48,216 nucleotides of DNA from Guyparkeria sp. SCN-R1 (GTDB lineage: Bacteria > Pseudomonadota > Gammaproteobacteria > Halothiobacillales > Halothiobacillaceae): assembly GCF_003932495.1 (NCBI RefSeq), contig NZ_QZMT01000015.1, positions 1 to 48,216 on the forward strand, given 5' to 3'. A program made the position numbers and the translations under genes. The notes under the pieces are model-generated. The model did no database searches. It was not told where the DNA came from and saw only the letters and a program-made list of their open reading frames with translations. This document shows positions 7,884 to 13,501 of the stretch, piece by piece. Numbering within the stretch: position 1 is the first letter of the stretch; each line of letters opens with the position of its first letter.

Positions 7884-8978
7884 TCACGGAAGCGCGGCGG
7901 CGGCCACCGCCGAGGCCACTTGCTCCGCCCGCTGCTGCAACTCGCCGGCGTTCTCCAATCCGTCGATAAACCGCTGGGGGATGCCGCTGAGCCCCACCTG
8001 AGCCCCCGTAAGCGCACCGGTCAGCATCGCCCGAGCCATGTTCTGGCCACCGCCATTGACCGCGTGCAATACCGCCGCCTCGAAATCGTCGGCAAATCGT
8101 GCCGAGAGGTAGTAGGCAGCCGGAAGCTGGTGATAAATGGCGCACGGCATGCCGTACACCAGGGAAACCTTCCAGGGTGGCTCAATGCGCACCCCGGGAT
8201 CGGCAGCCGCTGCGGCGATGAACGACGGTGTCAGCAGCGCATCGGGCGAGGCAAAACGGCCTGCCCGGGGCGGGTCCGGTTGCCCCGGCCGGGGCGGCTG
8301 AAGATCATCGCTGGTGACGGCATGAAACGGCAACTCACCGCTTTTCACCAAAGCCATCAGCTTGTCGGAGATTCCCGTATCCAGGCGTTGCCCCTGGACC
8401 AGCTGGGCCAGCAACGCACCGTACGCCACGGTCATGGAGACCACCGTTTCGTCCACCTGCGTCAGTGCGGTGTTATCCGCAATGGCTGCCGCCAGTTTCT
8501 TGGGCTCGAATGCATGGCGCACGGCAATGGCAAGTGTACGTTCAATGGCTTCGGTGGTGTCGGCGTGGCCACCGACTTCACCCCAGGGCAAGCCGTGCTC
8601 GACACGTTTTCGCCAGGCATCGCGGATGGATTGACTGGTGTAACCGCCGGGACCAGCGGCCGGGGTGCCATCAAGCATTGGGAAGAGGTCATCATCCAGC
8701 CGCCGGCAGAAATCCCCTTCGTCGTAACCATTCGACTCCACCAGCGAACGCAGCATCAAGTCGAGGATGATCCCCGCCTGGGAGAGCTGGCCGGCCTTGA
8801 GGCCCTCGTGGTATCGACCGGGCTTGGGGTCGGTGTAATCGTCGATCCAGTCGCCGTAATCCCGACGCAACTCGTCGAGGTTGTAGTACCAGTGCGGCCC
8901 CAGCCCCAGGGCATCGCCGATGAAGGCCCCCATGATCGCGCCGGCGACCCGGTCTTTTATAACTTCGCGATTGGTCAT
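7884..8978 (-). CDS. ADP-ribosylglycohydrolase-like protein with altered metal motif
   Basis: A 364-aa all-helical protein of the ADP-ribosylglycohydrolase (DraG/crystallin J1) family. The N-terminal motif GAIMGAFIGDALGLG and the GGHADTTEA segment in mid-protein fit the family. The second metal-binding motif, normally GGDxDT, is replaced by NGGGQNMARA (residues 308-317), so two Asp ligands are missing. This may be a subfamily with another substrate or a non-hydrolase. The start at 8978 is supported by a GGAGG site five bases upstream; the open frame continues 75 bases further without such a site. No partner ADP-ribosyltransferase is visible nearby. Confidence 0.75.
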   Translation of the reverse strand: MTNREVIKDRVAGAIMGAFIGDALGLGPHWYYNLDELRRDYGDWIDDYTDPKPGRYHEGLKAGQLSQAGIILDLMLRSLVESNGYDEGDFCRRLDDDLFPMLDGTPAAGPGGYTSQSIRDAWRKRVEHGLPWGEVGGHADTTEAIERTLAIAVRHAFEPKKLAAAIADNTALTQVDETVVSMTVAYGALLAQLVQGQRLDTGISDKLMALVKSGELPFHAVTSDDLQPPRPGQPDPPRAGRFASPDALLTPSFIAAAAADPGVRIEPPWKVSLVYGMPCAIYHQLPAAYYLSARFADDFEAAVLHAVNGGGQNMARAMLTGALTGAQVGLSGIPQRFIDGLENAGELQQRAEQVASAVAAAALP

Positions 8979-9133
8979 GGGGCCTCCGACGGTGGTTCGG
9001 TGAAGACGTCTCCGGTTATCGGTTACAAGCGTAGTCGCCACTCGAGTGGGCATCCATCACCGGGTGAGAGTCTTTTCGCACGCCTGTTGCGCGGAGTGGC
9101 CTTGAGTCATCGCCGTGCCCGGCGCGCGAGGGC

Positions 9134-9345
9134 CTTTTCTTGCTTGTCCAAGAAAAGACCCGAAAAGAAGGACACCCCACGGCTTGGCCCTTCGGGCCTT
9201 CGAGGCCGGACAAAGTCCGGCCTCGAAGCCTCACGACCGACGGCTGTCTCGGGGCCGGCTCGACGCGACGTCGTGTCGCGCTGAGCCTCGGAGCGACGTC
9301 CCTGTCGCTCCGACCCCGGCCACCCGCCGGCCGTGAGGCAAGCCG
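9134..9345 (+). repeat. Diverged inverted repeat element, copy A
   Basis: This begins with a TTTCTTG...CAAGAAA hairpin. It matches the reverse complement of 9498-9685 along most of its length, sharing the exact 16-mer CGACGCGACGTCGTGT (9261-9276). The spacing of blocks is the same but bases differ, so the copies are old. No convincing gene lies within. Confidence 0.75.
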
Positions 9346-9497
9346 TCAGGGGGCGGGAACCTTCGTTTGCCGCCGTGCCGGCACACGCAAAAAGTAATCT
9401 GCCTTTACCGAAACGCGCCAGCGGCGCGTGCCCAACCATAAGCCGCACCAAGCAAATGATTCATGGCACCGAGTTATCTGGCTCGACTGTCCCCTTC

Positions 9498-9685
9498 GCC
9501 CTTGCCGAGCGGCCGGGGTGCCGCAGGGTCGGGGCGGCATGGACGCCGCCCCGAGGTTCGCCGCTACACGACGTCGCGTCGAACCGACCCGACCGCGACA
9601 CCCCGGACGGGAGGGAAGCCCGTAGGGCCAAGGCGAGGGGTGCCCTTCTGTTTGGGCACTTTCTCTTGGGCAAGCAAGAGAAAGT
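9498..9685 (-). repeat. Diverged inverted repeat element, copy B
   Basis: Inverted partner of 9134-9345. It ends (on plus) with the stem ACTTTCTCTTG / CAAGAGAAAGT and shares the 16-mer at 9566-9581. The roughly 150 bp between the two copies (9346-9497) shows no coding signal. The pair fills most of the gene-free stretch 8979-9784. Confidence 0.75.
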
Positions 9686-9759
9686 GCCTCGCACGCCTGC
9701 CAATGCGGTTTGGCAATCAGCACTTGCGTTGAAGGCGTGCGAAATCATAGAAGCCTCTT

Positions 9760-9780
9760 AAAGGGTTCTGACCCCTTTTT
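9760..9780 (+). repeat. Short dispersed repeat GGTTCTGACCCCTTT, copy 1
   Basis: AAAGGGTTCTGACCCCTTT at 9760-9778 is itself a near-palindrome and is followed by two more T. Copies recur at 10171 in the same orientation and at 12677 inverted, all within the accessory island. Confidence 0.7.
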
Positions 9781-9784
9781 CTGG

Positions 9785-10162
9785 GATGCCCGGCTGACGG
9801 AGAACGCCTTGGCCCATGCCTGGCAACAACGGGGGCGCCCTGGCAACGTGATGTTCCACTCCGACCAGGGCGTGCAGTACGCCGCAGCCTCTTATTCCAA
9901 GGCCCTGTCACGGTTTGGCATCGAACCCAGCATGAGCCGCCGGGGCAACTGCTGGGACAATGCGCCGATGGAGCGACTCTTCCGCAGCTTCAAGAGCGAG
10001 TGGATGCCACGCGGTGGCTACGATTCGATCACCGCGGCCCGAAGAGACGCCGGGGCATACCTGATGGGCTACTACGATTCGGTCCGCCCGCACCAGTATC
10101 TGGAAGGCAAGACGCCGGCGGAAGCCGAGAAATCACTCAACCAACTGTCCAAGATTGCTTGA
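9785..10162 (+). pseudogene. Truncated IS3-family transposase (OrfB C-terminal half)
   Basis: About 125 codons of a DDE integrase (rve) domain survive. HSDQGVQYA holds the second catalytic Asp, and DNAPMERLFRSFKSEW holds the final Glu. The tail RPHQYLEGKTPAEAEKSLNQ is typical of OrfB. The first catalytic Asp, the helix-turn-helix OrfA and both terminal inverted repeats are absent, so it cannot be active. The reading frame is otherwise intact to the stop at 10162. Its 3' flank does not match the IS end found at the window borders, so it seems to be a different element. Confidence 0.85.
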
Positions 10163-10170
10163 CCACTACA

Positions 10171-10187
10171 GGTTCTGACCCCTTTCC
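10171..10187 (+). repeat. Short dispersed repeat GGTTCTGACCCCTTT, copy 2
   Basis: GGTTCTGACCCCTTTCC lies nine bases after the transposase relic and 23 bases before the end of the AT-rich nuclease gene. With copy 3 (12677-12692, inverted) it brackets that gene. Confidence 0.7.
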
Positions 10188-10209
10188 GGGCATAGTTGGA
10201 GAAAGATCC

Positions 10210-12381
10210 TTACTTTAAGCAGCACTTCTTGTATTTTTCCCCACTTCCGCACGGGCATTTTTCATTACGCCCTATCTTTCTCGATTTTTTAGTTACTGTT
10301 TTAAAATTGACCTTATTTTTTCCTTTCAACGACTGCGGTTTGGGGAGATCTTTAGTCAACTCATCCATTTCAATTGACTGCTCCCATCTGAAATGCTTGT
10401 TAACCCCAAACCTCAATCTCTCGGTTTTTGAGCCAAGGCATATACCAAACCATTGGTCAGCCTTCTGCTCATACTTTCTAAGCTCACAATGACGATCCAA
10501 CCGATTGGCTGCTTCGGCGTCTAAGTCTTCATTACAGTGAATAGTAAGCCCCGATCTTCCCTCGCTTATAGCGAGCGTTAAATCATGATGTTTACCATCT
10601 TTTCGCCCCAGCTTTACCAGCTCAGATATTCCGTCATTAATAATTTCGATTGTGCCACCACTAAGAGTCAACAGCATAAAGCCGAAATCTACAGTGGCTG
10701 GATGATCACGTAACTCAATATCCTTAACCAATCTTTCAAAGTGCGTTCCTTCGTACTTTGTTAATATTCCATCTGGAGTTGCAGCGCCAGGAACGCCATC
10801 CCGTCTGGCTAGCATTGCAAGATCTAAGTCAGCGCAAACATCATCGCCCAACTGCATCATAGTATATTCGCCATCCATCCAAAGATTCTGTTTTAGATGG
10901 TATGACAATATCGTCAGCTCATGCGTGCATAATATTTTATCACCATACATTGTCCTTCTATTTACGTAACTCAAGAAATGCAAAGGGGACTGCAGCATCT
11001 CTGTGGCGACATCCAAGAAAAAGACGTCCATCACAAAAGCCGGCTTGATCACTTCAGTTGGATTTTGCTCTAAGAATTGCCTGGCTTGAAACGACAAAGC
11101 TGGATAATGATCAGACACCACACAGAAAGGATAAATCTCCTTGAAGTCTCTGGTAATGGCTATTTCATTACCGCTCTCATCAACTATTTTGTAGCTACTG
11201 TTGGTTAATAAATTTGAGCATGACAAGGCTTGATCATATGCATCTTGAACAGCCTTTTTAAAGTCATCCTTTAGAGAAAGGTCATTCCCTTTACGAGCGG
11301 CGATGGTCAGTTTCTTTGACTTTGCTTGCAATACTATTGCTCTGTTTGCAAACACTACAAGCACATCTATTTCGCCTGCCGTATTACCCCTTTCGTCGAG
11401 AACATAAACGTTTTGAAAAACCCGCCTTTCTCCGAAAACACGCTTAAGTCTTGTGCTCGAAAAATCTTCGGTGAATTCGCCTCTATGGCGCATCGCAATG
11501 CTTCTATATGCGGCATCCGAATTGAACCAGAAAAACGGGGTTTCGTATAACGCTTCAACCAAACTGTAATTTTGGAACAAAAGGTACTTGTCGTCTTGAA
11601 TCTTTATGATTGGATAGGCGTTTATCGGATTAAAGTCACCTAAGGACGTGAAGTCTTCCTGCCCGACTGGCGACACAAACGACTCAACAACCTCTTTAGC
11701 AACCTCAACATCTAATTCGCACCTACCGGCTATTTCTTCTAAAGAAAACGCATAGGCTTCAAGGAAACTCCATTCATTTGGGTGCTTTTTAATTAGGCCG
11801 ACAAGAACATCATTGAGCTTATCATTTTGCAGAACCTGAATAGACGCCACGACAGAAAGTGCTTGCTCGAGAGAGTAGCCTTTATTTTCAACCAGCCATT
11901 CGTTATCGTTTCTATACTTATCCTTCGATAGATCTCTATATTGAAAGTGATATGCTGATTCGCCCCCATAAAAAATTGATTCTCTTAACACAGCGCCAGA
12001 ATTGAAAGGATTAAAGTTATCATCCCCAATTTTACTTGGGTCGAATATGTCTTCGAGTGGCGGCATCATGGAGCGATGCAATTCCTGAAGCAGGGATTCA
12101 GTCTTGCCAAGATATTCCTGCATCATCTTTGGAGAAGGCAAGGTTTCATCTATATCTATTTTACATGCCAGCCCAATTAGAGTAGATATTTCTGTTCTTA
12201 CCAATCGCTCCATTGAAAATTGCTGCAAAACATCTTCGGGCTTTACTTCATCGGCATATCTGATGGTGTTATCTCTAAAGCAGAAATAGGCGATTACATG
12301 AATATATCCTGGAGAGTGACAAAGGTCTTCTAGTTCTTTAAAAACGTCGCTTTCTTTTCTGGCTACTTTATTTTCCAGCAT
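10210..12381 (-). CDS. NERD/Mrr-like nuclease domain protein with C-terminal SEC-C motif
   Basis: A 723-aa protein I do not recognise as a named family. Residues 1-290 are mostly helical. Residues 300-440 look like a PD-(D/E)XK fold: Glu302 in RGEFTEDF, GEIDVLVV with Asp339, the strand AIVLQAKSK with Gln352 and Lys354 (the QxK variant seen in Mrr enzymes), then a helix with QDAYDQALSCSNLL as in NERD domains. The C-terminus (703-722) is a SEC-C zinc motif with CPCGS and KKCC. The gene is strikingly AT-rich with A/T-ending codons, unlike its GC-rich neighbours, so recent transfer is likely. A GGAGA site precedes the ATG. DNA or RNA cleavage, perhaps in phage defence, is inferred. Confidence 0.7.
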   Translation of the reverse strand: MLENKVARKESDVFKELEDLCHSPGYIHVIAYFCFRDNTIRYADEVKPEDVLQQFSMERLVRTEISTLIGLACKIDIDETLPSPKMMQEYLGKTESLLQELHRSMMPPLEDIFDPSKIGDDNFNPFNSGAVLRESIFYGGESAYHFQYRDLSKDKYRNDNEWLVENKGYSLEQALSVVASIQVLQNDKLNDVLVGLIKKHPNEWSFLEAYAFSLEEIAGRCELDVEVAKEVVESFVSPVGQEDFTSLGDFNPINAYPIIKIQDDKYLLFQNYSLVEALYETPFFWFNSDAAYRSIAMRHRGEFTEDFSSTRLKRVFGERRVFQNVYVLDERGNTAGEIDVLVVFANRAIVLQAKSKKLTIAARKGNDLSLKDDFKKAVQDAYDQALSCSNLLTNSSYKIVDESGNEIAITRDFKEIYPFCVVSDHYPALSFQARQFLEQNPTEVIKPAFVMDVFFLDVATEMLQSPLHFLSYVNRRTMYGDKILCTHELTILSYHLKQNLWMDGEYTMMQLGDDVCADLDLAMLARRDGVPGAATPDGILTKYEGTHFERLVKDIELRDHPATVDFGFMLLTLSGGTIEIINDGISELVKLGRKDGKHHDLTLAISEGRSGLTIHCNEDLDAEAANRLDRHCELRKYEQKADQWFGICLGSKTERLRFGVNKHFRWEQSIEMDELTKDLPKPQSLKGKNKVNFKTVTKKSRKIGRNEKCPCGSGEKYKKCCLK

Positions 12382-12429
12382 CCACTACTCTCCAGATTGA
12401 ATTTCCTAGCTATAAATGGACGACCTAAG

Positions 12430-12576
12430 CGCCGCATAAATTCCGGGATTGGCTCGTCCCACCGCCGAATGATGCACACAGTCAGTGACTTGCAACCAGG
12501 AGGAAGAAATTCGTTGGGACTGTTATGCGGCGATTACGCATGATATTGCCTTATGCGGCGGTTCCACGGCATAAGG
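12430..12576. repeat. Cluster of TTATGCGGCG motifs
   Basis: TTATGCGGCG occurs at 12523-12532 and 12551-12560 as direct repeats, with an inverted copy CGCCGCATAA at 12430-12439. CCTTATGC (12549-12556) also pairs with GCATAAGG (12569-12576). The cluster occupies the gene-free 12382-12721 stretch upstream of the nuclease gene. Such arrays can be recombinase or regulator binding sites; no recombinase gene is present here. Confidence 0.6.
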
Positions 12577-12582
12577 GGCACC

Positions 12583-12610
12583 GTGCCATACGGTTTCCTG
12601 CGTATGGCAC
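12583..12610. repeat. Perfect 10-bp hairpin
   Basis: GTGCCATACG (12583-12592) and CGTATGGCAC (12601-12610) are exact reverse complements around an eight-base loop. No T-tract follows. It lies next to the TTATGCGGCG cluster. Confidence 0.85.
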
Positions 12611-12676
12611 GTCTGAAAGCCTGGGGGCGGCTGATCGTCCCTGATGGGCTCATGGGGCGGCATCCACGCCATATAG

Positions 12677-12692
12677 AAAAGGGGTCAGATCC
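12677..12692 (-). repeat. Short dispersed repeat, copy 3 (inverted)
   Basis: AAAAGGGGTCAGATCC is the reverse complement of the copies at 9760 and 10171, with one base changed. It marks the edge where sequence returns to the GC-rich core, 29 bases before the end of phzF. Confidence 0.65.
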
Positions 12693-12721
12693 ATTTTCCG
12701 CGTTTTCCGAGATTTGGGGAA

Positions 12722-13501
12722 TCAGAGCGCAACCTCCGCCACCATCACCGTCACCGCCCCACCAGCCAACCGCACCCGATCACCCACCACTTCACAACCG
12801 AGATTGCCACCCCGCCTGGAAACCTGCCTGGCGGACAATCTCTCCTTACCCAGCCGATCGGCCCAATACGGCGCAAGCTGACAATGCGCCGAGCCGGTGA
12901 CCGGGTCTTCCGGGATACCGAGCTTCGGTGCGAAGAACCGACTGACGAAGTCCACCTCGTCACCCGGCGCGGTCACGATCACGCCGCGTCGGTCGAGCTG
13001 GCCGAGCAGGGCCTGGTCGGGTGACAGGGTGCGGATGGTCGCCTCGGAATCGAACACGACCACGTAGTCGTCACCGGCGAGCACCTCGAGCGGCTGCGCG
13101 CCGAGCCCGCGAACCAGCAGATCGGGAATGTCCCGAGGTGTCGGTGGGCAGGCCGGGAAATCCAGTTGCAGGGCCTCGCCTGCCCGTCTCACGAACAACG
13201 GGCCGCTGCGGCTGTCGAAGGTGATCACCGGTTCGTCGTGGCCGATCGACTCGAAGATGACGTGGGCGGCGGCGAGCGTGGCGTGCCCGCAAAGGTCGAC
13301 TTCCCGGGTGGGGGTGAACCAGCGCAGGTCGAAGCCGTTCTCGGTGGGGACGAAGAAGGCCGTCTCGGAGAGGTTGTTCTCTTCGGCGATGGCCTGGAGC
13401 AGGTCATCGTCGAGCCAGCGCTCGAGCGGGCACACGGCGGCCGGGTTGCCTTCGAAGGCGCGCGTGGCAAAGGCATCGACCTGGTATTGCGTCAGTTTCA
13501 T
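12722..13501 (-). CDS. PhzF-family isomerase/epimerase-like protein
   Basis: A 259-aa protein of the PhzF/diaminopimelate-epimerase fold, slightly short for the family. It has the N-terminal DAFATRAFEGNPAAVCPL motif, the catalytic Glu46 in NLSETAFFV, the RWFTPTREVDLCGHATLAAAH block, and the C-terminal half motif GIPEDPVTGSAHCQLAPYW. PhzF itself isomerises a phenazine precursor, but no other phenazine genes are here. Most genomic homologues (YddE type) have unknown cytosolic substrates. It stands alone, is on the minus strand, and ends at the boundary of the accessory island. Confidence 0.88.
   Translation of the reverse strand: MKLTQYQVDAFATRAFEGNPAAVCPLERWLDDDLLQAIAEENNLSETAFFVPTENGFDLRWFTPTREVDLCGHATLAAAHVIFESIGHDEPVITFDSRSGPLFVRRAGEALQLDFPACPPTPRDIPDLLVRGLGAQPLEVLAGDDYVVVFDSEATIRTLSPDQALLGQLDRRGVIVTAPGDEVDFVSRFFAPKLGIPEDPVTGSAHCQLAPYWADRLGKERLSARQVSRRGGNLGCEVVGDRVRLAGGAVTVMVAEVAL

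Follow-up and report, generated by a model that had tools for sequence, protein, structure and literature searches.

A mobile NERD/SEC-C nuclease gene from Guyparkeria sp. SCN-R1 with a probable role in antiviral defense

Closest described systems

The anti-phage protein Upx is said to originate from Gao et al. 2020, and it is the best structural match of the protein described here, with 387 aligned residues that include parts outside the nuclease core. Unlike our 723-residue protein, Upx has 1,212 residues; the two share 8% identity (VIA-align), and no profile match between them was found. The CRISPR ancillary nucleases Can2, Card1, and Cdn1 have the PD-(D/E)XK core in common with it (Z 6.5–9.5), and Can2 adds a weak, nonsignificant profile match (E 0.18), whereas the family protein lacks a CARF domain by Pfam at E values up to 1. 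Matches to BspD6I and FokI extend from a winged-helix part into the nuclease core, but the FokI alignment is loose (rmsd 10.6) and the family has no conserved methyltransferase partner.

NERD domains have been described in phage defense before. According to passages of PMC4365076, PglW is the NERD-containing kinase of the Streptomyces Pgl phage defense, and its NERD domain was suggested as a possible restricting activity. PglW thus resembles our protein in carrying a NERD domain within a phage-defense protein, but it is a kinase in a multigene system, and the family protein has neither a kinase domain nor a conserved partner. A NERD protein that is not known to belong to the NERD/SEC-C family is placed in a Vibrio phage-associated gene cluster by part of PMC12409351. 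Sections of Rousset et al. (PMC9122126) describe the psu-int slot of P4 as a hotspot of anti-phage systems and the gpA-gpQ region of P2-like phages, where old and tin reside, as a second one. Not all hotspot cargo was seen to defend in that work: when the canonical P4 genes and 18 further systems were cloned, protection against one or more of eight phages was recorded for seven. Relatives of our protein occupy these same slots, although neither NERD nor SEC-C appears in the main text of PMC9122126; both are likewise absent from the main text of PMC9519451. The literature covered, which excluded subscription papers and supplements, yielded no description of this NERD/SEC-C family. Searching PADLOC-DB 2.0.0 with the protein and five relatives returned no full-length match, only matches to the SEC-C tail and weak ones to the nuclease core.

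We analyzed a 48,216-nucleotide stretch of Guyparkeria sp. SCN-R1 (contig NZ_QZMT01000015.1), hereafter the window. The NERD/SEC-C nuclease gene occupies 10210-12381 on the minus strand, from an ATG start to a TAA stop, as defined by the ORF call, Pfam, and family alignments; a preliminary description of this DNA had placed the 723-aa frame at exactly these coordinates, leaving its strand unstated. The AT-richness pointed out at the same time is evident, the whole gene having 41.5% GC versus a mean of 66.3% (sd 1.6, minimum 61.2) across 406 overlapping gene-length slices of the rest of the window. Six of six pairs formed by the window gene with L011, L012, and L013 gave a dN/dS of 0.10–0.14, from which we conclude that the ORF is a genuine gene and not a chance reading frame.

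Domain architecture, active site, and predicted fold

Pfam assigns residues 301–396 to NERD (PF08378, 24.9 bits against a gathering threshold of 22.1) and residues 705–722 to SEC-C (PF02810, 32.8 bits against 20.4). The core is filed under NERD because this match exceeds the Pfam cut-off. The earlier label "NERD/Mrr-like" is therefore kept in its first half, and its second half is loose: no Mrr family was among the Pfam matches at E values up to 1, a search in which HMMER filters drop weak matches. Three parts can be delimited, all on the minus strand. The N-terminal domain (residues 1–296; 11494-12381) is helical and, at about residues 144–285, winged-helix-like in the structure model, and we regard it as a putative sensor or DNA-binding region. 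The PD-(D/E)XK core (residues 300–480; 10942-11484) is defined by Pfam, the order of secondary-structure elements, and matches to Can2 and N.BspD6I. The SEC-C zinc motif found by Pfam (residues 705–723; 10213-10269) contains C709, C711, C720, and C721. Pfam, secondary-structure order, and structure matches agree with the original domain call of a NERD-type PD-(D/E)XK core plus SEC-C, and the residues quoted with it read as given (GEIDVLVV at 336–343 with D339, then Q352 and K354).

All 35 members, the window copy included, share the proposed active site E305, D339, Q352, and K354, which is kept down to 25–28% identity among family members. This 35-member set was obtained by removing 10 of 45 rows, namely three repeats (L131, equal to L002; L133 and L135, which nearly duplicate L132 and L134) and seven fragments shorter than 560 aa. 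Six N-terminal residues (E64, E134, Y138, Q147, D159, and W162) are also identical throughout. A dead enzyme was ruled out by the invariance of the four active-site residues together with the dN/dS values. The SEC-C cysteines C709, C711, and C720 are present in 31 of the 35 members, with gaps in the other four: the ORFs of L029 and L037 are truncated, and L002 and L036 end without the motif. The last two retain the nuclease site while lacking SEC-C, and the zinc motif seems dispensable or replaceable.

A full-length AlphaFold2 model (mean pLDDT 77.2, pTM 0.79) was built from a 14-row alignment. Its elements follow the helix-strand-strand-strand-helix-strand order of a PD-(D/E)XK core, with helices at residues 290–316 and 367–392 and strands at 321–328, 334–344, 347–352, and 415–422. 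The fold was also found by structure search: VIA-align with the full model gave N.BspD6I at Z 9.7 over 151 residues and Can2 at Z 9.5 over 128, followed by FokI (8.8, with the rmsd noted above), Cdn1 (8.3), McrBC (7.2), and NucC (6.2). The next entries after Upx align 128–162 residues, mostly in the nuclease core. The alignments with BspD6I (2p14, model residues 144–483) and FokI (2fok, 152–477) continue from the winged helix into the nuclease. A viral structure library contained no match to the family model at E 0.001 or below. The protein is very probably a metal-dependent nuclease.

Above these entries stands Upx (PDB 9wuf), which aligns with the full model at Z 11.7 over 387 residues. Foldseek also ranks Upx first for the full model, at E 5.6e-4, its only match at or below 0.001. 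When residues 1–296 were modeled alone (mean pLDDT 82.8), Upx again came first, with a VIA Z of 9.1 over 252 residues against 5.2 for the next entry; residues 144–285 weakly resemble winged-helix regulators, at Z 5.2 and below. These comparisons, together with the naming of Upx among anti-phage systems in parts of two papers, could mean that the family belongs to Upx as a compact, diverged branch with the same mode of action, which would be a special case of the explanation favored below. We hold this reading only tentatively. The Upx alignment has an rmsd of 4.6 at the low identity given above and a Foldseek TM-score of 0.23 by query length, and the two comparisons put the N-terminal part on different stretches, since alone it maps to Upx 762–1115 but the full-length alignment spans Upx 32–869. 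The Foldseek E value of the N-terminal model is 0.26, not significant by itself, and helical domains reach middling Z scores by chance, which bears on the N-terminal Z of 9.1. Because VIA re-orders the hits that Foldseek supplies, the four Upx comparisons are not independent tests. A sequence-profile link is also missing: profiles of 14 and 35 rows run against PDB sequences, a set whose inclusion of 9wuf is unconfirmed, returned no Upx chain at E values up to 10. Nor was a model named Upx among the PADLOC matches of the window protein and five relatives, PADLOC's possession of such a model being likewise unconfirmed.

Insertion site and spread of the family

The preliminary description placed the gene in an accessory island beside an IS relic, diverged repeats, and a cluster of short motifs. 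DNA alignment with the sister genome G002 ends its collinear stretch at window position 9778 and restarts at 12732, which delimits a 2,953-bp insertion (9779-12731) with one intact gene; "island" is too large a word for it. The flanking genes encode an ADP-ribosylglycohydrolase and a PhzF protein, 94% and 96% identical in G002, where they lie about 1.2 kb apart. The same spot in G002 holds 619 bases of other, unrelated cargo (G002:C7:64813-65431, L176), with about 52% GC and one 114-codon ORF that looks secreted by eye. From the alignment break and this alternative cargo we conclude that the site is a small cargo slot and not a large island.

The smaller features named with the island are present. 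A 150-aa ORF at 9710-10162 on the plus strand, mostly within the insertion, looks like an IS3-type transposase reduced to its C-terminal part; the name comes from reading the translation. Adjoining this relic-like ORF, imperfect long inverted repeats occupy 9151-9690, with pairs that include 9151-9197/9618-9664 and 9252-9316/9526-9590, and blocks similar to them recur at the sister locus of G002. The short motifs correspond to GGGTCAGA/TCTGACCC sites, of which the window has three (9767, 10174, and 12682). The first falls in the REP-like motif TTCTGACCCC at the left insertion boundary (9764-9781), a second motif copy lies just 3' of the stop codon of the gene (10171-10185), and an inverted copy is near the right boundary (12677-12699). 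A 13-base form, AAAAGGGGTCAGA, has nine copies in the genome of the window versus none for its reversed control. The TCTGACCC/GGGTCAGA motif brackets the window cargo, and one-mismatch versions, one per side, bracket the cargo of G002; the motif may guide the exchange of cargo at this swap slot.

The preliminary description had also suggested that such islands often carry antiviral nucleases. A defense island in the window was ruled out, as 34 other window ORFs include no convincing defense neighbor. Their best 25 of 41 PADLOC matches seemingly come down to a UvrD helicase of the housekeeping kind and a single mad3-like hit, and the best 25 of 46 Pfam matches are to ordinary genes. Elsewhere in the same genome, an AbiEi homolog is found at G000:C20:14204-14968 (E 1.6e-76).

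The family is sparse and widely scattered. A species-level genome collection held 16 loci, of which two, on separate contigs of one genome, are apparently halves of a single gene; the GC content of the gene is below that of its flanks in all 16. With a cut-off of E 1e-40, a family member is present in five of 398 and two of 369 sampled genomes, both counts including that of the window. Ten other genomes of the genus, four of them under 90% complete, yielded no full-length copy; the same-genus matches listed are short and C-terminal, and we take them for the SEC-C tails of proteins the size of SecA and of other proteins. Relatives span five phyla, and plasmids and prophages are among their carriers. 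In a maximum-likelihood tree built from 35 members, the Oligella copy (Betaproteobacteria) falls in one group with three copies from Gammaproteobacteria, the window copy among them (100/100). Two further groups mix phyla: Desulfoluna joins Flavobacteriales (100/99), and Richelia and Pontibacter join Nitrospinota (96/96). Some members come from metagenome bins, in which contamination is possible; the record titles mark Richelia, Desulfoluna, Pontibacter, and Oligella as isolates. A hand count with one row per gene gives 38 independent copies, of which five look broken (L021, L029, L037, L038, and L128); the count leaves aside 18 of 19 Agrobacterium plasmids, the distant or partial plasmid hits H31–H37, and six of seven E. 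coli genomes with an integrative element.

This distribution bears on whether the protein could be a chromosomal enzyme of DNA or RNA maintenance that spreads for reasons unrelated to invaders. Both domains do have nondefense homes, SEC-C in SecA and a NERD-like domain, according to part of PMC9040797, in the staphylococcal cell-morphology protein SmdA. A maintenance role is nevertheless highly improbable, given a single-gene insertion, a presence in about 1% of sampled genomes, the lack of a full-length copy in the same-genus genomes searched, incomplete ones among them, and the proportion of copies that look broken.

Plasmids are frequent carriers. Relatives occur in 37 plasmid records, 30 of which cover 80% or more; 22 are typed conjugative, and 19 are Agrobacterium plasmids near-equal in length and match. 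In E. coli, an integrative element near guaA (L134/L135) carries a relative 44.8% identical to the window protein, which adjoins a YecA-family protein and two DUF262 proteins in the two genomes viewed of seven with a matching tail; the neighborhood is possibly a multigene defense cluster. The YecA-family protein of L134 itself ends in a SEC-C-type tail. Such carriers would suit a nuclease of inter-element competition that excludes plasmids or rival elements rather than phages, even if about half of the plasmid records are Agrobacterium ones of similar length and match. We think this unlikely; plasmids commonly carry accessory genes of many kinds, and the P4 and P2 slots in which relatives sit are described as anti-phage reservoirs in sections of PMC9122126.

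Neighboring genes contribute less. An operon partner was ruled out, since no cluster recurs in more than two of 39 loci (397 ORFs within 7 kb). For the nearest ORFs (142 of the 144 chosen, window ORFs 9333-9758 and 7920-9281 being omitted from the PADLOC scan), the best 25 of 124 PADLOC matches include mad2, MkoA, Drt4, Drt6, and methyltransferase models, with at most three members each; SduA of Shedu neighbors the gene in L129. The Pfam scan of the nearest ORFs shows that many relatives adjoin ordinary genes, although homologs are not confined to housekeeping contexts. On nine plasmids, PADLOC gave 142 rows near the gene versus 52 half a plasmid away (71 ORFs each), but these rows count models rather than genes, several models match one gene, and, within the best 25 of each set, the distant control also contained Hhe and Kiwa; for these reasons we claim no local enrichment of defense genes. 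Twelve plasmid neighborhoods include a type I restriction system, an abortive-infection protein, AbiEii, HxsABC, and integrases, along with many ordinary genes, and no CRISPR genes were named in them. On Azonexus and Sphingomonas plasmids, huge uncharacterized ORFs of about 1,290–1,710 aa adjoin the gene (L030 14302-18780; L032 6837-11963 and 14695-18564).

Slots in satellites and prophages and the probable role

In E. coli GD33 and A20 (L132, L133), a P4-like satellite at ssrA has the gene between its psu and int genes. This P4-borne gene is present in two of 5,426 E. coli genomes. A psu-side query matched partially in 2,229 of these genomes, several rows being just 35–60 bases, and only the two genomes cover 80% or more of it, gene included. 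Seven of the best eight rows (of 2,234) lack the gene; they share P4/cos-side sequence up to query base 1337–1338, 81–82 bases before its start codon. A Salmonella plasmid (L038; CP053577, 11282-15304) carries a decayed P4, in which a psu fragment, a broken copy of the gene, and a broken integrase follow one another. Provirus L049 has Phage_GPA (E 1e-128) on one side of the gene and, on the other, Phage_portal (E 1.4e-17) followed by a terminase. The published hotspot positions are thus occupied by L132, L133, and the decayed L038 (P4) and by L049 (P2-type), and not by the window copy. Of the 80 viral-contig loci kept, three are full length and the rest are short C-terminal matches; further viral-contig searches yielded no relatives beyond these three, and the family has no match in 50,697 phage records. 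The gene stands immediately before terminase and portal genes in viral contig L048 and adjoins head and baseplate genes at the contig end in L047.

These positions also bear on whether the protein serves the element that carries it, in replication, recombination, or packaging, and not defense. Integrases are often close to the gene (Phage_integrase in nine of the 142 nearest ORFs, some being fragments of one gene). We consider such a service very unlikely, as the carriers are unrelated (plasmids, P4-like satellites, a P2-type prophage, an integrative element) and the seven gene-less E. coli rows share the P4/cos-side sequence and end before the place of the gene.

A single gene that moves between distant bacteria and sits in the defense slots of a phage and a phage satellite points to a probable role in bacterial antiviral defense. 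The P4 and P2 positions are a stronger argument than neighbor enrichment, though they comprise few lineages: one P2-type lineage, effectively one P4 lineage, and one decayed P4. The antiviral suggestion of the preliminary description gains good support from the slots, viral contigs, plasmids, and Upx match of the relatives, and it loses the island in the window. The computed basis consists of the fold, the invariant E/D/Q/K site, the solo arrangement, mobility, and the two published slots. We consider it likely that the NERD/SEC-C protein is a stand-alone, horizontally spread anti-phage PD-(D/E)XK nuclease. Its natural role is probably defense against phages or rival elements, and there is good reason to expect a self-contained effector, spreading as one gene, that acts against phage or mobile elements. 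The chances are about even that the family is an unrecorded one, separate from Upx, in which one polypeptide both senses and cuts by means of a helical and winged-helix sensor, an invariant NERD-type nuclease, and a detachable SEC-C zinc finger, and which is present in at least five phyla and on plasmids, P4 satellites, and P2-type and other prophages.

As an anti-phage nuclease, the protein would recognize invading nucleic acid or a phage product through its N-terminal and C-terminal parts, which would hold or release the nuclease; the released nuclease would then cut DNA. The zinc motif may aid binding or folding. Replicating or structurally unusual phage DNA would be the likeliest target, because the closest matches that span both the winged helix and the nuclease are DNA endonucleases (BspD6I and FokI); alternatively, the protein could act by suicide, cutting the DNA of its own host.

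If the family is anti-phage, a one-gene system that is widely traded would escape PADLOC 2.0.0, and perhaps other tools. The gene is small enough for a P4-like satellite, so that laboratory E. coli would allow direct tests of its activity, target, and trigger. Confirmation would assign a function to the combination of a NERD nuclease with a SEC-C zinc motif and would show whether a Upx-like architecture extends beyond one family. The protein would then work like the single-gene defense systems of these hotspots, and it may or may not be a branch of Upx.
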